A stretch of 64,000 bases of DNA from Bifidobacterium sp. ESL0704 (GTDB lineage Bacteria > Actinomycetota > Actinomycetes > Actinomycetales > Bifidobacteriaceae). Of this stretch, positions 23,612 to 38,157 are shown one piece after another. Both the position numbers and the translations under genes were made by a program. Below the pieces are notes generated by a model. The model saw nothing but the letters and a program-made list of their open reading frames with translations, searched no databases and had not been told where the DNA came from. Position 1 is the first letter of the stretch. Every line of letters begins with the position of its first letter. The stretch is taken from NCBI RefSeq assembly GCF_029392075.1, contig NZ_CP113929.1:992001-1056000 (forward strand), read 5' to 3'.

Positions 23612-25033
<1,422 letters not shown>

Positions 25034-25293: not shown

Positions 25294-27765
25294 ATGGTTG
25301 AGGAATACAGTGCCAAGGACCTGTCCGTACTGGAAGGACTTGATGCCGTACGCAAGCGCCCGGGCATGTATATCGGCACCACCGATAGCCAGGGGCTCAT
25401 GCACTGCCTGTGGGAGATCATCGACAATTCCGTCGACGAGGCGCTCGCCGGTGCCTGCAACAAGATCGTGGTCACCCTGCATACCGACGGTTCCATCGAA
25501 GTGGCCGACAACGGCCGTGGCATCCCGGTGGATGTGGAGAAGAAGACCAAGCTCACCGGTGTCGAGGTCGTGCTGACCAAACTGCACGCCGGCGCGAAAT
25601 TCGGCAATTCCTCCTACGGAGCTTCCGGCGGTCTGCACGGTGTCGGTTCCTCGGTGGTCAACGCGCTGAGCTCGCGTCTTGACGTCGAGGTCGACCGCAA
25701 CGGCAAAACCTACCATATGGCCTTCCATCAAGGGCATCCGGGTGTCTACGACGATCCGGACACACAGCATCGTTCTCCGGACAACAAGTTCAAGAAGACT
25801 CGGAAGAACAAGCCCACCGAACTTGAGGTCATCGGCAAGGTGACGCCAAAGACCACCGGCACCCGCATCCGCTATTGGGCCGATCCGGAGATTTTCAACG
25901 ACACCGCGCATTTCAGCTATGAGCAGCTCATCGATCGAGTACGGCAGACCAGCTTCCTGGTTCCGGGCCTGAAGATCATCGTCATTGACGAGAACATCCC
26001 GGAAACCGGCGACGCAGCCGTGGATGATATGTTCGAAGTGGACGGACCCCAAAAATCCGGGGATATGCGCTCTGATTCGGATACGGATTCGGATACGGCA
26101 AGCGTTGGGCAGACGCCCACGTTGGCGGCGGCATTCGACGGCAACGAAGGTGATCCTGCGCCGAAGACTCAGCAGGGCGAAGATGGCCAGAGTGATATGG
26201 CGGCGGATGGGGAATCGTCATCCGGTAGCACCGAGGAATCCACGTCAGACAATGCCGGGCAAGCCGATTCCGCAGCTCGGATGTCGGCCGATGATACGCA
26301 ATCGAAGGCAGGCGGGTCCCGGGATGGCGGCAACGCGTCGCTGAACGTGGAAACCGACGGCCATCCCGCTCATGCTCACAAGCGTGTCGAGGAATTCCTG
26401 CATACCGGAGGCGTGAAGGACTTCGTCGACTTCCTTTCGCAAGGTGAGCCCGTTTCGACGGTGTGGAATATAGCCGGCGATGCCACCTATACCGAAGAGA
26501 CGCAGGCGGTGGACGACAACGGCGACCTGCACGCCGAAAAGATCAAACGAGACTGCTCGGTCAACATCGCCCTGCGCTGGGTCAACGGCTACGACACGAC
26601 CATCCGCAGTTTCGTCAACGTGGTGGAGACCCCCGGCGGCGGCATGCACGTCGACGGGTTCCTGCAATCGATCACCAAGCAGGTGCGCAAGGCCGTCGAG
26701 GCCAACGCCCGCAAGCTCAAGGTCAATCTGAAGGATTCCAAGAGCAAGGTCGAGCGCGACGACATCCTCGCCGGTCTCGTGGCCGTGGTCACCGTACGCA
26801 TCGCCGAACCGCAGTTCCAAGGCCAGACCAAGGACGTGCTCGGTACGGCTCCGGTGCGTCCGATCGTCTCGAAGATGACCGACAAGCAATTCGGCGAGAT
26901 GATCAACGGGTCGCGCCGCGGCTTCAAGGAGCAGTCCGGGCGGGTCTTGGAAAAGATCGTCGGCGAGATGCACGCCCGCATCCAGGCACGCAAGACCAAG
27001 GAGGTCACCCGCCGCAAGAACGCGCTCGAATCCGCCTCCATGCCGGCCAAGCTTTCCGACTGCCAGCCGGGCAACGACGATGTGGCCGAACTGTTCATCG
27101 TCGAGGGCGATTCCGCTCTGGGAACGGCCAAGGCGGCCCGAAACTCCGGTTTCCAGGCGTTGCTGCCGATCCGTGGCAAGATCCTCAACGTACAAAAAGC
27201 CAGCATGACCCAGATCCTGGCCAACAAGGAATGCTCGGCGATCATCCAGGTCATCGGTGCGGGGAGCGGCGCCAACTTCGACGTCACCCAGACCCGCTAC
27301 AACAAGGTCATCATGATGACCGATGCGGATGTCGACGGCGCCCACATCCGCATTCTGCTACTGACGCTCTTCTACCGATTCATGCGACCGCTCATCACTC
27401 ACGGCCATGTCTACGCCGCCGTTCCGCCGCTGCACCGCATCGCGCTGGCCGGCAAGCACAAGGGCGAGTTCATCTACACCTATTCCGACGACGAACTGGC
27501 CGGCAAGCTCGCCGAGCTCGACAAGCAGGGCATCGCCTATAACCCCGATGTGCAGCGTTACAAGGGCCTGGGCGAGATGGACGCCGACCAGCTGGCCGAC
27601 ACCACCATGGACCCGCGCAGCCGGATGCTGCGCCGCATCTCCATAGAGGAGGCCGAGGATGCCAGTAGCATATTCACCCTGCTGATGGGCGACGAGGTGC
27701 CTCCGCGCCGTCAGTTCATCGTCGACAACGCCGACGATTTCGACCGCACCAAGATCGACACCTGA
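25294..27765 (+). CDS. parE: DNA topoisomerase IV subunit B (ParE)
   Basis: An 823-residue type IIA topoisomerase ATPase subunit. The GHKL ATP site is marked by LWEIIDNSVDEALAG near 42-56, a DNGRGIPVD loop and GGLHGVGSSVVNALS. The TOPRIM domain has EGDSALG near 604 and the metal-binding DADVDGAHI near 675. The ending VPPRRQFIVDNADDFDR is ParE-like. Its partner is parC at 40856. ParE is preferred over GyrB because of the neighbouring sigma factor and parC. An acidic, Ser/Asp-rich insertion of about 110 residues (about 250-358) lies where relatives have a short loop. No strong Shine-Dalgarno sequence is seen. Confidence 0.93.
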   Translation: MVEEYSAKDLSVLEGLDAVRKRPGMYIGTTDSQGLMHCLWEIIDNSVDEALAGACNKIVVTLHTDGSIEVADNGRGIPVDVEKKTKLTGVEVVLTKLHAGAKFGNSSYGASGGLHGVGSSVVNALSSRLDVEVDRNGKTYHMAFHQGHPGVYDDPDTQHRSPDNKFKKTRKNKPTELEVIGKVTPKTTGTRIRYWADPEIFNDTAHFSYEQLIDRVRQTSFLVPGLKIIVIDENIPETGDAAVDDMFEVDGPQKSGDMRSDSDTDSDTASVGQTPTLAAAFDGNEGDPAPKTQQGEDGQSDMAADGESSSGSTEESTSDNAGQADSAARMSADDTQSKAGGSRDGGNASLNVETDGHPAHAHKRVEEFLHTGGVKDFVDFLSQGEPVSTVWNIAGDATYTEETQAVDDNGDLHAEKIKRDCSVNIALRWVNGYDTTIRSFVNVVETPGGGMHVDGFLQSITKQVRKAVEANARKLKVNLKDSKSKVERDDILAGLVAVVTVRIAEPQFQGQTKDVLGTAPVRPIVSKMTDKQFGEMINGSRRGFKEQSGRVLEKIVGEMHARIQARKTKEVTRRKNALESASMPAKLSDCQPGNDDVAELFIVEGDSALGTAKAARNSGFQALLPIRGKILNVQKASMTQILANKECSAIIQVIGAGSGANFDVTQTRYNKVIMMTDADVDGAHIRILLLTLFYRFMRPLITHGHVYAAVPPLHRIALAGKHKGEFIYTYSDDELAGKLAELDKQGIAYNPDVQRYKGLGEMDADQLADTTMDPRSRMLRRISIEEAEDASSIFTLLMGDEVPPRRQFIVDNADDFDRTKIDT

Positions 27766-27785
27766 TAGCGATTGCAACAATTACT

Positions 27786-27825
27786 TTGCCCGTATCGGAA
27801 TCATTGCGATATGGGCAAGTCTTGT
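27786..27825 (+). terminator. Terminator after parE
   Basis: TTGCCCGTATCG at 27786-27797 pairs with CGATATGGGCAA at 27807-27818 with one G-T pair. The downstream U-tract is short. Confidence 0.65.
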
Positions 27826-28030
27826 ATAGTTGTTGAAGCTTGTCAGGACAGACCGGGTCGGTTGATGAGGCTCGAAGCAATTTGATATTCCGGCGTTGTA
27901 TGTCATGAGACGAATGCGTTTCGTTCCTGTATTCCCGTTCTCACGGTATGAGAGAATGAAAACGTTGTCTTGGATTCGGTTGCCGGAGCAGCAAAATCTG
28001 GAACCGGCGTCATGGTCTGAAGGAGTCATC

Positions 28031-29278
28031 GTGACCAATCTGTTGTTGGCCGTCATCTATCTGGCGTTCATTTCGCTGGGTCTGCCGGATTCCCTGCTGG
28101 GTGCCGCCTGGCCGAGCATGCGCCCGACGATGGGTGTGCCGCTTTCCTGGGTCGGCGGCATCTCGATGATCATTTCGGCCGGTACCATCGTCTCAGCGCT
28201 GCTTTCCGACCGTCTGACGCTACGATTCGGCACCGGCAAGCTCACCGCCGTCTCCGTGGGGCTCACCGCCGTGGCTCTCTTCGGCTTTTCGGTCGCACCC
28301 AACTACTGGATGCTTGCGTTGATCGCGATTCCCTACGGCCTCGGTGCCGGCGGGGTCGATGCGGCGCTCAACAACTATGTCGCCATCCACTACGCGAGCC
28401 GTCACATGAGCTGGTTGCACTGCATGTGGGGTATCGGCGCCTCCGTCGGTCCCTACATCATGGGATTCGCGCTCTCCAATGGTCAGGGCTGGCCGTGGGG
28501 CTATCGTTACATCTCGATCATTCAGATTGCGCTGACCGTGATCATTGTGTTCTCCCTGCCGTTGTGGAAAGGCCGCAACGACGTTGTGCTGGCAACCAGC
28601 TGTGAAGGCCGCGAGGGCGATGCACCTGCGAACAAGGTTGAGGGCGTCTCTGAAACCGAAAACGCAGCAGAAAGCAAACCCGTCAAACCGTTGGGTGTGC
28701 GTGGGGTACTTGCCATCCGTGGCGCCAAAGAGATCCTCGTCATGTTCTTCTGCTACTGCGCCATCGAGACCACCGCAGGGCTCTGGGCTTCAAGCTACAT
28801 GGTCGGTCACGACCGCATCGGCAAGGTCACCGCCGCGTCTCTGGCAAGCCTGTTCTATCTCGGCATCACTGCAGGACGTGCGTTGAGCGGGTTCATGACC
28901 ATGAGATTCGACGATCCCACGATGATTCGCATCGGACAGGTGGTTCTTGGCTTGGGGCTGATCGTCATGTTGCTGCCGTTGCCGGCTCATGTCGCCACTA
29001 TCGCAGGTCTGGTGCTGGTCGGATTGGGTTGCGCGCCGATCTATCCGTGCGTCATCCACTCCACGCCTTCGTATTTTGGCACCGAGCGCTCGCAGGCGAT
29101 TGTAGGGGTGCAGATGGCGTGCGCCTACACGGGCTCGCTGGTGATGCCTCCGGTGTTCGGCCTGATCGCCCAGCACGTCTCGGTGGCGCTCTATCCCTGG
29201 TACCTGCTGGTGCTGTTGGCGCTGATGATCGTGATGCATGAGATGTTGCGGCGCAAGGTGGCTGGTCGGGTCGGCTGA
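28031..29278 (+). CDS. MFS transporter
   Basis: About 415 residues with 12 hydrophobic segments and a charged central loop (about 190-220), typical of the major facilitator superfamily. The LPDSLLGAAWPSM opening and the GLGAGGVDAALNNYVA segment near 105-120 resemble sugar/fucose-permease-like members, but the substrate is unknown. The GTG start at 28031 has AGGAG five bases before it; the frame extends upstream without such a signal. By position it is the middle gene of the block whose ends are duplicated in the following scar. Confidence 0.88.
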   Translation: MTNLLLAVIYLAFISLGLPDSLLGAAWPSMRPTMGVPLSWVGGISMIISAGTIVSALLSDRLTLRFGTGKLTAVSVGLTAVALFGFSVAPNYWMLALIAIPYGLGAGGVDAALNNYVAIHYASRHMSWLHCMWGIGASVGPYIMGFALSNGQGWPWGYRYISIIQIALTVIIVFSLPLWKGRNDVVLATSCEGREGDAPANKVEGVSETENAAESKPVKPLGVRGVLAIRGAKEILVMFFCYCAIETTAGLWASSYMVGHDRIGKVTAASLASLFYLGITAGRALSGFMTMRFDDPTMIRIGQVVLGLGLIVMLLPLPAHVATIAGLVLVGLGCAPIYPCVIHSTPSYFGTERSQAIVGVQMACAYTGSLVMPPVFGLIAQHVSVALYPWYLLVLLALMIVMHEMLRRKVAGRVG

Positions 29279-29300
29279 TTCCATTGTGGTTTGTCTGAGT

Positions 29301-29516
29301 GTGTCGATGTCAAGGGTGAAGGCATGTTCGACGAGCCCACTTGGCAAGCCGCTTGATTGCGGATTGTTTGGATGCGTTGACGTCGAAGGTATCTTGGGCG
29401 GGTCCGCCTGGCAAAATTGCCTGGCTATGGATTGCTTGGTGGCATCGACATTGAGGGTGAAGGAATCTGGACGAGTCCACCTGACAAATCCGGCTGATTA
29501 CGGGTTGCTTGGTTGA
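29301..29516. repeat. Three degenerate tandem repeats of about 70 bp
   Basis: Units begin near 29301, 29373 and 29442 and share the order TCGA(C/T)(A/G)T..GAAGG, (C/G)(A/G)(A/G)GTCC(A/G)CCTG-like, and GATT(A/G)CGG(A/G)TTG(T/C)TTGG. Identity between units is moderate, so this is an old duplication. It lies between the MFS gene and the broken lhr copy. Confidence 0.7.
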
Positions 29517-29665
29517 GCGGTCTGAGATTGGTGTCACCTGTATGGAAGTTGTTGAAAGCAAGCTGTGAGGCGGCTGGAATGGCATGTCTTAAGTCATAAA
29601 GATGCTAGGAAACGGTCAGGTTCGCAGACGGATCAACGTCCTGAGGAGTTGCCATAATCGAACAT

Positions 29666-30178
29666 ATGTACGAATGCTTGAGTCTGTTCTCGCCACCCAC
29701 CAGGGCGTGGTTCAGACATGCGTTCTCGGCGCCAACGAACGCCCAGCAAGAGGCGTGGCCACATATCAAAGCCGGTGAAAACGTCTTGGTCGTCGCGCTC
29801 ACCAGTTCCGGCAAGACGTTGGCTGCCTTCCTCTCCGCCATTGATGGGTTGATCGGTGAACAATCCGGTGACAAGCCGTCTCGACCAGGCAAGCCGGGCG
29901 TCAAAGTGCTCTATATCTCGCTGTTGAAGGCGCTGGGCGCCGATGTCGAGCGCAATCTGCGGGTGCCGTTGGGGGGCATCGCCGCACAATGCGTCGCCAT
30001 GGACGTCGAGCCTCCCGAGAACGATGTGGCCATCCGCTCAGGGGGTACCGCGGCCAAGGAGCGTCGGCGCATCGCCGCGCATCCGCCCGATATTCTCATC
30101 ACCACGCCCGAGTCGCTGTATTTGTTGCTGACATCGAAAGCCCGGCGCATCCTCAAGGGTGTCGAGACCGTCATCGTC
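29666..30178 (+). pseudogene. Truncated 5' copy of lhr helicase
   Basis: The first 171 codons mirror the N-terminus of the intact helicase at 32857: MYECLxLFSPPTRAWF, the QQEAWPHIK run, DVERNLRVPL and LITTPESLYLLLTSKARRILK. Walker A has decayed from PTGSGKT to LTSSGKT, and a PLKALGAD segment reads LLKALGAD. The copy lacks the Lys/Asp/Ser-rich linker of about 47 residues found in the intact gene. Homology ends just after VIVD of motif II. About 39 bases upstream of the ATG match the region before the intact gene with two differences. It is not expected to make a working helicase. Confidence 0.93.
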
Positions 30179-30253
30179 GATGCGGTGCCGCCGCGTCGCT
30201 AGTTCATCGTTGACAATACCGTCGGTTTCGACCGCAGCAAGATTGACTCCTGA
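30179..30253 (+). pseudogene. 3' fragment of parE fused in frame to the lhr fragment
   Basis: The frame continues from the lhr fragment into DAVPPRR, stop, FIVDNTVGFDRSKIDS, stop. This aligns without gaps to the last 25 codons of parE (DEVPPRRQFIVDNADDFDRTKIDT); by hand count 61 of 75 bases agree. The Gln codon CAG of parE has become TAG at 30200-30202. The join lies where lhr reads GACGAAGT and parE reads GACGAGGT, a shared 8-bp patch with one difference. Confidence 0.92.
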
Positions 30254-30402
30254 CGGGAGAGTAGCTATCGCTTAGAGGTATGAGCATTATTATATTTTGT
30301 TGGACAAAATGCCGAAGATTCGAAAAGAAGAGATATTGTGATACACTGCTTGTCTGACATCTCCAGTCGTGAATATTGTTCGTGTCCATATGGGGTGGTT
30401 TC

Positions 30403-31328
30403 TAGTGATTATTGCAACACCTTGAGGTGAATCAGGATGTTGCTTGGTAGCATACGAGTTCGGCGGGAAACGCTACCCGGACGGAAATCCATGCTGAAGG
30501 GACATTACACGCGGCTGTCCAACGTCGGTATGAACTACACGCAGGCGGTCCGCATGATCAGAATCTCGAAACGCACCGGTAGGGCCTGGCGCACCGACTG
30601 TAACGAGAAGCCGAGCGTCGACAGCTACCATTAAAGGTATGGAACAGCCAAGGTCATCGACGGACGCTATCTGAGCTAGGAGAGGAACACCTTCGAATGG
30701 CTGACACGGTACTGGAGTTCGGGGCAAACCAAACGCCGCCTTGGTCATGGCGTACTTGGATATAAGACCGTGAGGGCAAGCCACAAGACCATCTCCGGGT
30801 CATATGCCTCCAGTCCAAGTGCAGGTTACGGTCCGAACTGAAACAGGCCCTACGGAAAGGACGGATGAGAAGAGAGACGTAGGACACGTCCTACGGTAGG
30901 ATGAAACGCTTCTGCGACTTGTAGACGATGATTGTCGACCGGTCGTCGGCGTGTACAACAGAAGCGCCGGCGATGAGGTCATTGAATACACCACGAGGTT
31001 CGTAGTTCTGCTGCACCTGCCAGCGCAGCGTGCCGGCATCAAAACCGCTTTGGCTCTTGACATCTACTTTTGCCAAGCGCACTCCTTGTGGCAACGCAGC
31101 ACCAGCGAGAACGCTAACGAGCTCCTGCGCCAGCGCTCCCTTAAAGCCACCGACCTGAGCGTCTACCCGGCGGGCTACTCCGACGCCGTCGTCCGGGAAC
31201 CCAACGACCGGCCCAGCAAAAGACGCTCACTGGAGATGACATCATCAAAGAAGATCACCTTGCTCCTTCAAGGCATCCGATAGCCTAAACCGATCAACTA
31301 GACAACAACGGTGTTGCAATGATTACTA
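30403..31328 (+). mobile_element. Decayed IS30-family insertion sequence
   Basis: About 926 bp bounded by inverted repeats TAGTGATTATTGCAACACC (30403-30421) and GGTGTTGCAATGATTACTA (31310-31328), which differ at two positions. Inside are pieces of an IS30-type transposase in several frames. A full element of this group is longer, so an internal deletion is likely. No target-site duplication is visible at the edges. Confidence 0.88.
30437..31281 (+). pseudogene. Broken IS30-family transposase
   Basis: Fragments in order: HYTRLSNVGMNYTQAVRMIR with SKRTGRAWR (N-terminal helix-turn-helix), DGRYLS-stop-ERN, HKTISGS, LKQALRKGRMRR, TTRFVVLLHLPAQ, and the C-terminal catalytic part IYFCQAHSLWQRSTSENANE with LLRQRSLKATDLSVYP. 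The last matches the DPHSPWQRGxNENTNGLLRQ region around the catalytic Glu of IS30 transposases, with several changes. Stops and frameshifts separate the pieces. Confidence 0.88.
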
Positions 31329-31451
31329 AAATCGCCTAGCTGGTAAATCGTTTTATACTCGTGTGCGTAGTGGGTGGAGGTTTGTTACCGATCTTCTCTA
31401 CAAAACTATATAAAAAACTGCTTAATTTCAATAACTTCCAATTTGCCATTG

Positions 31452-32672
31452 TCATTTACATTGGTAGGTGCAGTGATACCCAGTTGAAAGACCATACCAA
31501 GTTATTTTTTTATGTTCTTTTTTGGCAATAATAAAATATTCGCTTAGTGGAACATCATATCTGCAAGTAGATTTTTGGGTTATGTGAGGCATAAAAATCA
31601 TCGCGCCATTTGGATTAAAACCAGTACGCACGGCTCTGTTTATATAAGCTACGTGGTTAATTGATGCGTCGCTATCCCAATCGCCGTAGAGTAAAGATCC
31701 CTGAGGCAAATCATAAGCGGTTAATGCAGGTCTTTGTGGATTGTACAACCCAGAATAGTATCGCATATAGCGATAATTGTTTGCAGCACCACCCCATGTG
31801 TATGTAGCTTTCCCAAACCCATAATAGCCCCAAGCGTTATCGTTCTTGTAGTCCCAAAGAGAAACGTTGCGCTTTACCTGACCTCCCTCATTGTCATATA
31901 AAATCTGAGAAATAAAATTTGCACAATTATTCTTATAGTATGGATACTTCGGATTGAACTTATCTTTAGTATCTCCGTAGTGTTGACCGGTTGTCCAGTT
32001 TTTCGCATATTTGCTTGCTTGCACTACAGGAAAGTTCCAATCCGCTCCGGCCATTCTGTTCAGTTCCTGGGATAACGCAGAACCCGCTTTATTGATGTCA
32101 GTAGATAGGGGCGAGTCCTTATCGAGATTATTGTCAGTAGGATTTTCTGAGCTTGAATCATCTGACTCGGGAAGTAGATTGTCATCTAAAATATCAATAT
32201 TGTCATTTTTGGTTGCAAATCTTGGTATTTGAATTTCGTGTAAATCGTCTGAAAGGCTTTGCTGAATATCGTTTGGTGAAGCTGAGGGAGAATCTAGGTA
32301 ATCGATTGTTGTTGTAAATAAAGAGCGAACAAAAGTTGTATTCGCTGTTCTTTTCACGGATTCGACCTTATAAGTAATCTGAGCTTTCTTTATTGGCATG
32401 CCATAGTCAATGTATCCTTTTCGAAGTGGGTCCACTTGTCGTTCCGCAAATTCTCTATCATTATCACTAAATGTAGATAGAGTCTTTGCATCCTGAGTGT
32501 ATTCTGCAGATAATAAAGTTGTGTATTGATTGAGTCTGTCTCTTTCTGCGGGTTGAAGCGTTTGTGAGCCAGGTGAACTGTTAGCATTTCCTGCATAGCA
32601 TCCTGATACTATAAGCATAGATATTGTTAATGCTGCTGCTAGAACAATACTTTTATAATGTTTTTTCCGCAT
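31452..32672 (-). CDS. Lipoprotein with amidase_6-like domain, AT-rich
   Basis: A 406-residue exported protein. The signal peptide ends in a lipobox (IVSGC, Cys25). A polar Ser/Asp-rich middle leads to a C-terminal domain (about 215-395) with YYKNNCANFISQIL, a WDYKN segment, WGGAANNYRYMRYY and NHVAYINRAV. That Cys/His pattern fits the putative amidase domain of NlpC/P60-like fold seen in Gram-positive secreted proteins. The likely site of action is outside the membrane, possibly on the cell wall; the substrate is unknown. AAAGGAG precedes the ATG. Base composition is clearly more AT-rich than neighbours, and it sits beside a decayed IS, so recent transfer is likely. Confidence 0.82.
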   Translation of the reverse strand: MRKKHYKSIVLAAALTISMLIVSGCYAGNANSSPGSQTLQPAERDRLNQYTTLLSAEYTQDAKTLSTFSDNDREFAERQVDPLRKGYIDYGMPIKKAQITYKVESVKRTANTTFVRSLFTTTIDYLDSPSASPNDIQQSLSDDLHEIQIPRFATKNDNIDILDDNLLPESDDSSSENPTDNNLDKDSPLSTDINKAGSALSQELNRMAGADWNFPVVQASKYAKNWTTGQHYGDTKDKFNPKYPYYKNNCANFISQILYDNEGGQVKRNVSLWDYKNDNAWGYYGFGKATYTWGGAANNYRYMRYYSGLYNPQRPALTAYDLPQGSLLYGDWDSDASINHVAYINRAVRTGFNPNGAMIFMPHITQKSTCRYDVPLSEYFIIAKKEHKKITWYGLSTGYHCTYQCK

Positions 32673-32695
32673 TTTGATCTCCTTTGAACAATCTT

Positions 32696-32701
32696 ATTAT
32701 A
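32696..32701 (-). promoter_or_regulatory. -10 element of the amidase-like lipoprotein gene
   Basis: TATAAT on the minus strand, 24 bases before the ATG. No good -35 box is seen at normal spacing. Confidence 0.5.
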
Positions 32702-32721
32702 ACACTTGCAATTAGGGGTAT

Positions 32722-32758
32722 AGGGGCGGTGGGAAACTTTCGCCGCCCCTTGTTTTTA
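32722..32758 (+). terminator. Orphan plus-strand terminator
   Basis: AGGGGCGG at 32722-32729 pairs with CCGCCCCT at 32743-32750, followed by TTGTTTTTATA. No intact plus-strand gene precedes it; it may have ended a gene now lost from the scar region, and it insulates lhr. Confidence 0.75.
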
Positions 32759-32843
32759 TACATTGTCTTTATGAGCGGATTGTCGAGGTTTGAGATACTG
32801 GATGGAATCGCCCGATTGTAGGTATGCAGTCCTGAGGCGTTGC

Positions 32844-32849
32844 GATAAT
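32844..32849 (+). promoter_or_regulatory. Candidate -10 of a leaderless lhr transcript
   Basis: GATAAT lies seven bases before the ATG, with no ribosome binding site between. The same arrangement (CATAAT) is kept before the truncated copy at 29666. Confidence 0.45.
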
Positions 32850-32856
32850 CGAACAT

Positions 32857-35800
32857 ATGTACGAATGTCTGGATCTGTTTTCACCGCCCACCAGGGCGTG
32901 GTTCGGACATGTGTTTGCCGCACCCACGCATGCCCAGCAAGAGGCGTGGCCGCATATCAAGGACGGCGAAAACGTTCTGGTGGTCGCACCCACCGGCTCC
33001 GGCAAGACCTTGGCGGCGTTCCTTTCCGCCATCGATGGGCTGATTGACAGGCAATCCGCTCAGCACACAGAATCTGTCGCCAGGTCCAAGGCGGACAAAT
33101 CGGATAAGCCAGGCAAAAGAGAGGAATCATCGGATTGTTCCGATAAGTCTGACAAGTCTGACAAACCGACGGGTGGGGCCAAAACGGACAGGTCGGGTCG
33201 TCAAGGCAACATGAAAGGTGCGACGAAGCCTGGTGTCAAAGTCCTGTATGTCTCGCCGTTGAAAGCGCTGGGCGCCGATGTCGAGCGAAATCTGCGGGTG
33301 CCGTTGGAGGGTATCGCTGCGCAATGTGCTGCTGACGGTATCGACCCGCCTGACATCGATGTGGCCATCCGTTCGGGGGACACCACGGCCAAGGAACGCC
33401 GCCGCATCGCCGCGCATCCGCCGGATATCCTGATTACCACTCCCGAGTCGCTGTATCTGCTTCTGACCTCGAAGGCCCGGCGCATCCTCAAAAGCGTCGA
33501 GACTGTCATCGTCGACGAAGTACACGCGCTCGCAGCCACCAAGCGCGGGGCGCATCTGGCCGTGAGCCTTGAACGGCTCGACTTGCTGACAGGCCGGAAC
33601 GTGCAGCGCATCGGTCTTTCGGCGACGGTGAACCCGGCGAAGGAAGCCGCGTTTTTCCTGGGCGGAGACCAGCCAGTCACGATTGTCGACGCCGCCGACC
33701 CGGTGCATATGGATCTGAACATCGTCGAACCTGTAGCGGATATGGGGGCGCTGGGAACCGCCTCGGATGACGAGGGTGGATTCCACGTCGGAGGCGTCGG
33801 CGGGAAATCTGCAAAGCCGGGTGTAGGCCCTGCAATTCATAGCGATGGCGGCTCTCGCCGTATCAGCGGTGTCACACCCGCCATGCGTGCGTTGGCTGAA
33901 GCTCGGAAAGATTGCGCAGGCCGGAACGTGGATATTGATGATGCATCGGGTCATTCGAATTCCTTGGCCAGGCACGGCGACTATTCCTCGCCAACCGCCT
34001 CCGCCTCGCATTCCATCTGGCCTGCCGTCGAACGCAGCATCTTGGATGAGATTCTGAGCCATCACAGCACGTTGGTGTTCGTCAATTCTCGAGGGCTGGC
34101 CGAAAGACTCACCGCACGCATCAACGACCTGTACGCGCAAACCGAATGCGGCGCCGAAGTCGATAATCGTTCCTACGGAGACGGCAAACATTACGATTCC
34201 GTCGTCGGTTCCTCCACGTCTTTGGTCGGTTCGCATTCGAAGTCCGAGACCATCGCCATGGCACACCACGGTTCCGTTTCCAAGGAACGGCGCAAGATCA
34301 TCGAAGACGATCTGAAGCACGGCCGCCTGCGTTGCGTGGTCGCTACCAGCAGTCTCGAGCTCGGCATCGATATGGGTTCGGTCGACATGGTCATCCAGGT
34401 CGCGCCGCCGCTGTCCGTTTCCTCCGGTCTGCAACGCGTCGGCAGGGCTGACCATCGTGTCGGTGGGGTTTCCCATGCGTTGTTCTACCCGCTGACTCGT
34501 CAGGAGCTCATTGCTTCCACGGCTACCGTTGAGGGCATGAGGCGTAGCAAGATCGAACCTTTGGCGGTACGTCATAATCCGCTGGACATTCTGGCCCAAC
34601 AGACGGTCGCCGCAGCGGCGATGGACGACCTGAACACCGACGATTGGTATGCGGCCGTACGTCGCAGCGCCCCGTTCGCCACGCTTTCGCGTGACATGTT
34701 CGATTCGGTTGTCGGTATGCTCACCGGCGCCTACAACTCCGAGGAATTCTCGGCGTTCAGACCTCCACTGCAACTCAATGCCGAACAGGGCATCATCTCT
34801 GCCCGTCCCGGTTCCCAGCGTCTTGCCGTCACCAGCGGCGGTACCATTCCCGATCGTGGCACCTACACCGTCGTTTTGCCCGAAGCCGATGCCGGTTCGG
34901 GGCGCAAGAAGGTAGGAGAGCTGGACGAGGAGATGGTCTACGAATCCCGTGTGGGTGACGTCATCACGCTTGGCACCTCCACCTGGCAGATCGACGAGAT
35001 CACCAATGACCGTGTCGTGGTCACCCCGGCTCCCGGACGCACCGCGCGACTGCCGTTCTGGCACGGAGAGGGGCCTGGGCGCGACGCGGGATTCGGGGCG
35101 TTGCTGGGCGCGTTCGTCCGCGAGATCGGCAATGGGCTGATTCCGGCATCTGCAGCGATTTCAGCTTTGTCTTCGCAATCATCGCAATCTGATGATGACA
35201 GCGCCGAGCCTCATTTTGATGGCCCTACCGAGCAACGCCTGCGCGACAATGGTTTGGACGATAACGGCAGAGCCAATCTTGCCCGTCTGCTCGCCGAACA
35301 GAAGGCCGCCACCGCCGCATTGCCGACCGACAGGACCCTGGTCATCGAGCGTTGCCAGGACGAGGAAGGCGACTGGCGCGTCATCCTGCACTCGCCATAT
35401 GGCCGTCGTGTGCATGAGCCGTGGGCGCTCGCCATCACCAACCGGCTCAAGCGCCAATACGGCTTCGACGGGCAGACCTACGCCACCGATGACGGCATCG
35501 TGGTGCGTCTGCTCGAGCAGGACAGCCATGTGGGAGCCGCAGAACTGTTCCGGTTCGATGCCGACGAGTTGCTGCGTGACGTCGAGGAGGAGATCGGTGA
35601 CTCGGTCCTCTTCGCCACCAGATTCCGCGAATGCGCCGCCCGTTCGCTCTACATGCCGAGGATGAACCCCGGCAAGCGCGTGCCGTTGTGGCAGCAGCGC
35701 CTGCGTGCCTCCGAGCTCTTGGCCGCGGCCAAGACACAGCACAATTTCCCGTTGATTTTGGAAACCGCCCGCGAATGCTTGCAGGATGTCTACGATTTGC

Positions 35801-38157
35801 CCGCATTGAAACGGCTGATGACCGATATCGATGACGGCACAATCGAAATCCGCGACGTCGAGATGCAAAGTCCGTCGCCGTTCGCGCAAAACCTCCTATT
35901 CGGTTTCGTGGGATCGGTGATGTACGAGTACGATTCACCGCAGGCGGAACGCCGTGCTTCGCTTCTTGCGATGGACCCGGAAGTTCTGGAAGAGCTGCTG
36001 GGTAGCGGTCATATCGCCGATGTCCTCGATCCGAAGGCCATCAAACAGGTTGAGGACGAGCTGAGCCACCGGCAGTTCTGGAACGAGCTGGAACCTGATG
36101 ATGTCAACGGCAGAATGGTGCGGTTTGCCAAAACGCACGGGCCGTTCACCGCCGATGAAGCGGTCAAAGAGCTCGGCTTGGACGCGGCCACGGCTGTCCA
36201 TGAGCTCGATGGTCTCAAGGCTCGCGGCGTGCTGATGACCGGCGAATTCGTCAAGGATCTGCCCAGTCCGCAATACCTGCATCGTGAGGTCTTCCGTCGT
36301 ATCCGCTCGCGTTCGCAGACATTGACTCGCAAGTCTCTCAAGCCTGTAGGCGCTGAAACCTATCAATCGTGGCTGCTGGTGCGGCAGGGGATTGGTGCAA
36401 AAGCCGACGGTTCCGCTTTTGCACATATACCGCATAATCATCAGACTGCTGTCGATCAAGATGGAATTGACGACAAGGCAGAAGACATTCGGCCGGATTC
36501 TCAAGCTGTCTTGCCTTATTTAAGCGGGGCTGACGGCCTGTTGCGCGTCATTGAGCAGTTGGAGGGCATGCCCTTGCCTGCGGCGATGTGGGAATCATCG
36601 GTGTTCCCCGTCAGGGTGTCGGACTTCACTCCATCCATGCTGGACGAGCTGCTTTCGGCCGGTGAGATCATTTGGATAGGTTCTAAGGATGAAGGTTCGG
36701 CCTCTAATCCGGAATCAGCCACAAAGCCTGGCAGAATCGCGTTCTATCTAGCCGATTCGCCGTTGCTCGCGAATGTTGATAATCATCAGGATTTGCCCAG
36801 TCAAGAAGTTGACGAAGACATCAAACGTCGACTTCCGTGGATTCCAGCGGTTGACAAGCATGCTGACGATGGCAGATCCCAATCCGATAGTGTTTCGGCG
36901 GATCAGGAAAATTGCGTCAGTGGCGGCATCCTTTCGCTGCTGGCTCTTGGCGGTTCCTATCGTGCGGAACAAGTGGAAGCGCAATGGCGACTTCATGGCG
37001 GTGACCAACCTCAGGAGGTCGTGGATCCTCTGACCGGTGAGGTGCGTGTATCCTCACTTGGTGATTCGAGATTCGAACGAGAACTTTGGTCATTGGTGTG
37101 GCAGGGCCAGGTCACCAATTCATCGTTTGCTCCGGTTCGTGCCTTGCTGCAAAACCGAAGTAGTGCTCAACCCTCCCGTCATTCGTATGCAAGAGCATCA
37201 ATGAGCCGTCATCGTCTGTACGGCCGCGCAAGGGTCGAACGGCGTTCGCAATTGCCGGGGACGTTGGCCGGATTGTGGTCGGCTGTACCGAAGTCGCAGG
37301 ATGTGCGTCCGGAGCAACGTGCCATTGCGCAGGTCGAAACATTGCTCGACCGTTACGGCATCATTGCCCCTCCGCTGATGGATATGGATCCGGGAGACTT
37401 AAGTTTTTCGGATATCTATCCGGTTTTGAAACAGATAGAAGCCGCTGGCACGTTGGTGCGCGGCATGTTCGTTCGCGGTCTTTCCGCAGTGCAGTTCGCC
37501 GAACGTACCAACATCGACCAATTGCGGCAGTGGAGAGTGCAGGATGCCCCGCTTGCGGTGACGTTGGATGCTGCAGATCCAGCCAGTCTTGCCGGCGGTG
37601 CGGTTGCCTGGCCGTCGTTGAACACGTCCCATGATACGGCCGATATCACCAAAAAGGGCAGGGCCGAAACCGATCCAGAGAACGATTCGGTTGCTGTCCA
37701 ATCTGCTGATGTGGACGCTGCTGAAGCGATAAGAGATTCACCGGAAGATGAAGGGAAACGCGATCCAAGCAAGTCATCGGTTCCGTCGGATGGCACTGTG
37801 CCGTCTCCTGCTGTTACTGCGGTCGCGCATAGGCACGGGAAACCGGTACAGCCCCGGCGCTTGGTCGGTTCGACAGTCGTTTTCATCGAAGGCAAGCCGG
37901 TGCTTTACGCCATCCCGTCCAGTCATCATCTCCTGTGCTTCGATGCCACTGATTTTGAGCTTCAGCGTGCCATCACACAACTGGCCGATGCCTTGCGCTC
38001 GCAGTATGCGTCAGGCCGGTGGCCGGGCAACAGACGCGGCAGCATCACCTTCCGTGATGTCAACGGCGAGCCTTTGACCACTCTGAATCACTACACACAG
38101 CTGTTACGCATCGCCGGTTTCACGCCCTCCCCGCAGGGAATGAAACTGTATCGATAG
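32857..38157 (+). CDS. lhr: Lhr-family ATP-dependent helicase
   Basis: A 1766-residue superfamily 2 DEAD/H-box helicase of the Lhr type, a 3'-5' helicase linked to DNA repair. Motifs: Walker A PTGSGKT near 45-51, TTPES near 195-199, DEVHA near 220-224, SATV near 252-255, then in the second RecA domain LELGIDMGSVDMVIQVAPP and the QRVGRADHRVGG arginine motif near 525-536. The large C-terminal Lhr region follows. Three Lys/Asp/Ser-rich linkers (about 64-120, 290-345 and 1580-1640) make it longer than common relatives of about 1500 residues. A broken copy of its 5' end lies at 29666. Confidence 0.94.
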   Translation: MYECLDLFSPPTRAWFGHVFAAPTHAQQEAWPHIKDGENVLVVAPTGSGKTLAAFLSAIDGLIDRQSAQHTESVARSKADKSDKPGKREESSDCSDKSDKSDKPTGGAKTDRSGRQGNMKGATKPGVKVLYVSPLKALGADVERNLRVPLEGIAAQCAADGIDPPDIDVAIRSGDTTAKERRRIAAHPPDILITTPESLYLLLTSKARRILKSVETVIVDEVHALAATKRGAHLAVSLERLDLLTGRNVQRIGLSATVNPAKEAAFFLGGDQPVTIVDAADPVHMDLNIVEPVADMGALGTASDDEGGFHVGGVGGKSAKPGVGPAIHSDGGSRRISGVTPAMRALAEARKDCAGRNVDIDDASGHSNSLARHGDYSSPTASASHSIWPAVERSILDEILSHHSTLVFVNSRGLAERLTARINDLYAQTECGAEVDNRSYGDGKHYDSVVGSSTSLVGSHSKSETIAMAHHGSVSKERRKIIEDDLKHGRLRCVVATSSLELGIDMGSVDMVIQVAPPLSVSSGLQRVGRADHRVGGVSHALFYPLTRQELIASTATVEGMRRSKIEPLAVRHNPLDILAQQTVAAAAMDDLNTDDWYAAVRRSAPFATLSRDMFDSVVGMLTGAYNSEEFSAFRPPLQLNAEQGIISARPGSQRLAVTSGGTIPDRGTYTVVLPEADAGSGRKKVGELDEEMVYESRVGDVITLGTSTWQIDEITNDRVVVTPAPGRTARLPFWHGEGPGRDAGFGALLGAFVREIGNGLIPASAAISALSSQSSQSDDDSAEPHFDGPTEQRLRDNGLDDNGRANLARLLAEQKAATAALPTDRTLVIERCQDEEGDWRVILHSPYGRRVHEPWALAITNRLKRQYGFDGQTYATDDGIVVRLLEQDSHVGAAELFRFDADELLRDVEEEIGDSVLFATRFRECAARSLYMPRMNPGKRVPLWQQRLRASELLAAAKTQHNFPLILETARECLQDVYDLPALKRLMTDIDDGTIEIRDVEMQSPSPFAQNLLFGFVGSVMYEYDSPQAERRASLLAMDPEVLEELLGSGHIADVLDPKAIKQVEDELSHRQFWNELEPDDVNGRMVRFAKTHGPFTADEAVKELGLDAATAVHELDGLKARGVLMTGEFVKDLPSPQYLHREVFRRIRSRSQTLTRKSLKPVGAETYQSWLLVRQGIGAKADGSAFAHIPHNHQTAVDQDGIDDKAEDIRPDSQAVLPYLSGADGLLRVIEQLEGMPLPAAMWESSVFPVRVSDFTPSMLDELLSAGEIIWIGSKDEGSASNPESATKPGRIAFYLADSPLLANVDNHQDLPSQEVDEDIKRRLPWIPAVDKHADDGRSQSDSVSADQENCVSGGILSLLALGGSYRAEQVEAQWRLHGGDQPQEVVDPLTGEVRVSSLGDSRFERELWSLVWQGQVTNSSFAPVRALLQNRSSAQPSRHSYARASMSRHRLYGRARVERRSQLPGTLAGLWSAVPKSQDVRPEQRAIAQVETLLDRYGIIAPPLMDMDPGDLSFSDIYPVLKQIEAAGTLVRGMFVRGLSAVQFAERTNIDQLRQWRVQDAPLAVTLDAADPASLAGGAVAWPSLNTSHDTADITKKGRAETDPENDSVAVQSADVDAAEAIRDSPEDEGKRDPSKSSVPSDGTVPSPAVTAVAHRHGKPVQPRRLVGSTVVFIEGKPVLYAIPSSHHLLCFDATDFELQRAITQLADALRSQYASGRWPGNRRGSITFRDVNGEPLTTLNHYTQLLRIAGFTPSPQGMKLYR

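Follow-up and report, generated by a model that had tools for sequence, protein, structure and literature searches.

Organization of the parE-lhr Locus

The window analyzed here is a stretch of 64,000 nucleotides that corresponds to bases 992001–1056000 of the single-contig, 2.4 Mb genome of Bifidobacterium sp. ESL0704 (G000 in the comparisons below). Within it lie, in this order, parE, an MFS transporter gene, a scrap that joins the start of an lhr gene (lhr′) to the end of a parE gene (′parE), foreign DNA and an intact lhr, an arrangement for which the original prediction had given both the gene order and the coordinates correctly.

The intact parE (positions 25294–27765, forward strand) encodes a member of the DNA gyrase/topoisomerase IV subunit B family with the Pfam domains DNA_gyraseB, DNA_gyraseB_C, Toprim and HATPase_c. 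The name parE, rather than gyrB, follows the original prediction; a second, more distant gyrB-like gene is found elsewhere in the same genome. The gene upstream of parE (23612–25033) differs at 33.4% of its third codon positions from the nearest relative, G029, and at 30.4% from G117, and its product, unlike that of parE, is less similar to that of G029 (83% amino acid identity) than to that of G117 (90%). Being nearer to other species than to G029, this gene may be recombinant. The intact MFS gene (27896–29278, forward strand; Pfam MFS_1) is followed by a spacer (29279–29635, read on the forward strand) that contains one imperfect 46-nt direct repeat, its copies 73 nt apart. The spacer has no match among the 111 other genomes of the genus, and a tandem repeat finder run on 29200–29700 returned no rows.

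The DNA that separates the scrap from the intact lhr is of mixed character. A decayed element at 30400–31331, bounded by 22-nt inverted ends (inverted repeat 86%), is presumably IS30-like, the family name being that of the original prediction; it has one match in its own genome, and its best pieces are 71–81% identical to sequences of G121. On the reverse strand, positions 31452–32672 hold a gene with an Amidase_6 domain (PF12671, E 2.2e-15), a putative lipoprotein in the wording of the original prediction. Relatives of this gene occur in 14 of the 111 other genomes of the genus and are distant (27–39% identity), and given its low G+C content and the lack of closer relatives it was probably acquired. 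The G+C content is 39% in the Amidase_6 gene, 41% in 30254–30399 and 55% in the IS30-like element, versus 58% in the window as a whole, so that the foreign look of the region is borne out by composition for the first two. The intact lhr helicase gene (32857–38157, forward strand) carries the Pfam domains DEAD, Helicase_C, WH_Lhr and DEAD_assoc and is preceded on the same strand by a stretch (32827–32856) whose conservation is apparent from the sequence and from comparison with relatives.

A Chimeric lhr′/′parE Pseudogene

The scrap opens with its own copy of this conserved leader, about 30 bases long (29636–29665), which both lhr copies have retained ahead of the start codon. It continues with lhr′ (29666–30178), the 5′ end of an lhr gene recognized by its Pfam DEAD match and its alignment to the intact lhr, and probably a xenolog, and ends with ′parE (30179–30253), the last 25 codons of a parE; all three parts are on the forward strand. 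Aligned locally with the intact lhr, lhr′ plus its leader has 486 identical bases out of 583 (83%), a length that takes in the leader and a few bases beyond the join. The fragment corresponds to lhr over some 170 codons, lacks most of the hypervariable linker and is cut at the DEVH box. A search of the scrap against its own genome recovered the intact lhr (E 2.7e-83 and 1.3e-61) and the end of the intact parE (E 4.1e-14), values that rule out a chance match of either half.

The passage from lhr′ to ′parE is in frame and the similarity to parE spans all 25 codons, as had been predicted; the earlier estimate of about 14 differences in 75 bases agrees with a count of exactly 14. At 30200–30202, in the eighth codon of ′parE, a TAG replaces the CAG of the intact parE and ends the fused reading frame at 178 amino acids. 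The DEAD domain of lhr′ is matched only to residue 172, and Helicase_C, WH_Lhr and DEAD_assoc are present in the intact lhr alone; with its helicase core incomplete, the product falls short of a working Lhr helicase. The join sets the 3′ end of an upstream gene after the 5′ end of a downstream gene, the novel junction to be expected of a tandem duplication. The segment 29636–30253 is a decaying chimeric pseudogene, a small scar that most likely has no function.

The Locus in Related Bifidobacteria

The parE-lhr locus was compared across 32 relatives, of which 14 belong to the near clade; the relatives include Bifidobacterium sp. ESL0784 (G002), ESL0763 (G034) and ESL0682 (G015), B. bohemicum DSM 22767 (G008) and a Bifidobacterium MAG (G116). 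B. bohemicum is a bumble-bee species, and from this host the clade may be bee-associated. The nearest relative, G029, is identical to the window at 95% of amino acids in parE, 87% in MFS and 86.5% in lhr. It shares the order parE-MFS-lhr with 12 of the 13 other near-clade genomes, parE and lhr being separated by 1518–1636 bases, and the MFS gene thus holds the same position in 13 of the 14. The remaining genome, that of ESL0763 (G034), lacks an MFS gene at this place, and only 148 bases separate its parE from its lhr.

Intermediates with a second MFS gene, which the original prediction proposed to look for in relatives, did not turn up in the loci compared. The more distant G007 has two MFS genes at the locus, and was rejected as such an intermediate since the two, 61 and 35% identical to that of the window, are paralogs. 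A 160-base query across the join, searched in 189 genomes of the family with at most four candidate places scored per genome, matched in 87 of them, and both halves were covered only in the genome of origin. In the other matching genomes the halves match at separate places or one half matches alone, no match extending more than 16 bases past the join on its weaker side. No intermediate covering both halves was thus found among the 188 other genomes at the places scored. Nor was the scrap found at an unrelated site in the genomes searched, where its presence would have spoken against the predicted duplication. A protein search with the fused reading frame, limited to candidates of 0.55–1.75 times its length, gave one 100% identical match on a 61,580-base contig, marked like the proteins of the window itself and perhaps no independent assembly, and a next best match of 65%. 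No second lhr start was seen in the loci of the 32 relatives or among the genus-search matches listed. None of the titles listed in the literature searches deals with this locus, and no paper of the collection searched names Bifidobacterium together with ESL0763.

Divergence and Placement of lhr′

Over the 167 codons that can be compared, lhr′ differs from the lhr of its own genome at 18 first, 15 second, and 64 third positions, and from that of G029 at 18, 14, and 59, while the two intact genes differ from each other at only 8, 6, and 44. The junction has the geometry of the tandem duplication originally proposed, and the resident parE and lhr are not well supported as its parents, with 64 of 167 third positions separating lhr′ from the resident gene against 44 for G029. 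A long linker common to the intact lhr and its G029 counterpart is also absent from lhr′. None of the 15 sequences compared qualifies as the donor of lhr′: they differ from it at 18–27% of bases.

In the free tree, the resident lhr pairs with that of G029 (96/96), and lhr′ falls outside the pair without a settled position. In this setting without a fixed backbone, a tree that groups lhr′ with the resident lhr is 11.6 log units worse (AU p 0.09); for grouping with G000+G029 the loss is 3.4 (AU p 0.32), with G034 0.5 (p 0.32), and with G004 12.8 (AU p 0.20). The AU test thus rejects lhr′ neither with G000 nor with G000+G029 or G004. When 27 placements were scored on a fixed backbone built from parE and the rest of lhr (a tree from an incomplete run, carrying no support values), the best five lay within 1.5 log units of one another around the base of the G034/G025/G029/G000 group, namely on the branches G034+G025, G034+G025+G029+G000, G029+G000, G034, and G025. 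Placement on the G000 tip was 11.4 log units worse (AU p 0.038, KH p 0.022, SH p 0.18) and on the G029 tip 11.3 log units worse (AU p 0.034); three deep placements had AU p 0.050–0.058, just above 0.05. As judged from these placements, lhr′ belongs to the neighborhood of G034, G025, G029, and G000 but probably not to the tip of the resident lhr. The G000-tip values, together with the unconstrained AU p of 0.09, the codon positions and the excess divergence of ′parE, lean against the derivation of both halves from the flanking resident genes. Informative sites are limited to 167 codons in lhr′ and 25 in ′parE.

Codon Positions and the Loss of Function of lhr′

From the node that unites G000 and G029, the lhr′ branch carries 14, 11.5, and 39.5 changes at codon positions 1, 2, and 3. 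The resulting ratio (1+2)/3 is 0.65 (bootstrap 0.39–0.99), compared with 2.0 in simulated neutral decay and with medians of 0.30 (G000) and 0.42–0.86 (six others) on the branches of working lhr genes; by this ratio alone lhr′ looks like a working gene. Its branch lengths on the fixed tree agree with this, being 0.10, 0.067, and 0.44–0.62 at positions 1, 2, and 3. Because the divergence of lhr′ lies mostly at third positions, the fragment appears to have worked as a gene for the greater part of the time since it separated. Truncation from the outset would be expected to leave equal change at the three positions, so the pattern points to long selection before truncation.

If lhr′ had lost its function at or before the G000/G029 split, a minimum of 35–49 changes at positions 1 and 2 would be expected, versus 25.5 seen. 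Four yardsticks give neutrality P-values of 0.0001, 0.0005, 0.011, and 0.053, the borderline value coming from the parE yardstick; in all of these the third positions of working genes serve as a lower bound of the neutral rate and base-composition bias is ignored. At the same time, lhr′ has six changes among 103 residues that are invariant in the other sequences, including one at the join; each of the other 15 sequences has changed at 0–5 of 103–108 by the same count (five in G025). The residues invariant in 15 relatives and changed in lhr′ include P45L, G47S, P86L, G113D, and D127G, two of which presumably lie in the Walker A motif, and these replacements fit a recent decay. The intact reading frame of lhr′ itself is not decisive as a clock, the simulated probability of finding no stop dropping from 0.6 to 0.01 as divergence rises from 4% to 60%. 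Import of a relative's recently truncated gene fits both the third-position pattern and the signs of decay. Of the two options left by the original prediction, that the event is old or that one copy was imported, the codon positions favor the latter.

The parE Half and the Join

The 14 differences between ′parE and the resident parE exceed the 3–5 predicted from second positions of lhr′. The rates used were 0.067 per site and, once the constrained share had been subtracted by hand, 0.042; P is then 6e-6 to 7e-4, and 1e-4 to 0.006 if the two codons at the join are left out. The excess persists when all change at positions 1 and 2 is taken as neutral (P 0.008–0.014). For eight of the 14 differences, the base in ′parE is also seen in other species, in one case in G034 alone. 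Distributed as 3, 4, and 7 over the three codon positions, the changes taken alone also fit neutral decay of an old copy. Over no more than 25 codons, the excess is suggestive of a ′parE that is foreign too, and so speaks against a join to the resident parE.

Both resident genes contain the sequence GACGA(A/G)GT at the positions originally reported (27691–27698 and 33514–33521), within CGACGAGGT on the parE side (27690–27698) and CGACGAAGT on the lhr side (33513–33521), both read on the forward strand. The exact stretch that the two genes have in common where the join lies is CGACGA, six bases long, and when the two gene ends are joined at random, a match of at least six bases across the join has a frequency of 0.003. 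The scrap itself reads CGATGC at this point. Microhomology at the join, as originally proposed, is likely, but it is deduced from resident genes that are probably not the true parents, these being more likely unsampled.

Formation of the Scar

The most satisfactory account, which we consider probable, is that the scrap is a decaying chimera whose lhr′, and probably also ′parE, came from a related, unsampled Bifidobacterium by homologous recombination. We infer that the donor's segment from the end of parE to the start of lhr had its two ends joined at short homology, whether by forming a circle in the recipient or through a tandem duplication that the donor already carried, and that homologous recombination would then have placed it between MFS and lhr. 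A single crossover of a donor circle comprising the end of parE, MFS, and the start of lhr would give exactly the order observed, and the same order would result if a donor with a tandem duplication passed the region on by homologous recombination. An extra MFS copy, if there was one, would have been lost later, when the IS30-like element and the Amidase_6 gene came in. The original prediction had assumed such a replacement of a second MFS copy, and it finds no backing in the DNA between ′parE and lhr: nothing in 30254–32856 matches MFS beyond chance, the only low E-value belonging to the lhr leader. A more tentative proposal, and one we would regard as rather doubtful, sees in the scar a natural record of a housekeeping segment from a related species, circularised or duplicated, that came in through homology and whose join can still be read.

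A tandem duplication within this genome of its own parE-to-lhr segment, long ago, would account for the gene order and the six-base identity at the join with no donor at all; it agrees with the order parE-MFS-lhr in the clade, with ′parE changes that look neutral by themselves, and with a position of lhr′ as sister of G000+G029 that the trees do not reject. The junction fragment of such an event would have been dead from birth, and it therefore fits poorly both after and before the G000/G029 split: after it, because the tip placement loses 11.4 log units, and before it, because too few changes have accumulated at positions 1 and 2, one borderline yardstick notwithstanding. It must also contend with the linker missing from lhr′ and with the lack of a second MFS remnant. 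On placement, codon positions, linker, and MFS, internal duplication, recent or old, was rejected as the sole cause, and we hold this origin to be unlikely. Less probable still is a homology-facilitated illegitimate recombination in which foreign DNA carrying MFS-lhr′ recombined within MFS and an illegitimate join linked its other end to the end of the resident parE, leaving a foreign lhr′ and a native ′parE. It yields the same order, and PMC3240628 cites earlier work with 3 to 10 bp of micro-homology at most such joins; the four such clones it describes had 0, 0, 0, and 1 base of homology, its account has a deletion of similar size as the general observation, and the divergence of ′parE beyond the decay of lhr′ weighs against a native origin. 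An old duplication of the full gene, giving two working lhr genes, one of them truncated afterwards when it recombined with a copy of parE, would explain long selection on lhr′ without import. Against it, no second lhr start was seen in the relatives' loci or the listed matches, and it calls for a long-lived duplicate lost elsewhere; it seems very improbable.

Comparison with Known Systems

In E. coli receiving conjugated plasmids cut on entry, a duplication PCR product was obtained from 56 of 60 clones, with 14 sequenced, and the duplications were ascribed in PMC3240628 to a shortened, recircularised molecule and one crossover. As that report describes it, recircularised linear DNA integrated by a single crossover leaves, like the present locus, a partial duplication of the target beside a new end-to-end join. 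Its setting was a plasmid under laboratory selection, whereas the preferred origin of the scrap in a related species is drawn from one scar with no second MFS gene. Homology-facilitated illegitimate recombination, as outlined in PMC3240628, likewise combines one homologous with one illegitimate join, but would leave a native ′parE, disfavored here by its divergence, and generally goes with a deletion of resident DNA. The transformation-driven merodiploids of Streptococcus pneumoniae (PMC3784515) resemble the present case in being tandem duplications aided by incoming DNA; those presented there span about 100–900 kb and use existing chromosomal repeats, in contrast to a segment of about 2 kb and a six-base match here.

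The event is of an ordinary kind and the scrap is a minor evolutionary relic that changes nothing known about lhr or parE. Its interest is that of a small scar, datable in rough terms, left by recombination between bifidobacterial species, and of an example in which codon positions tell an old internal duplication apart from a look-alike import. If the more tentative reading, that of a natural record of entry by homology, is true, duplications and chimeric genes can arise at core loci through exchange between species of Bifidobacterium.

Integration of a circle by single crossover predicts a hybrid MFS gene with a 3′ end like the donor's, and the resident MFS gene was scanned for traces of such a crossover. 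In nine windows along the gene, G029 is the best or tied best match in seven, and in the last (29113–29262) G015 reaches 84% and G029 82%. A scan of shared sites gave no clear breakpoint, and a mosaic MFS gene was accordingly dropped as proof of a crossover point. At 28363–28512, several other species are 90–91% identical to the window versus 83% for G029, a possible sign of recombination in this genome or in G029.
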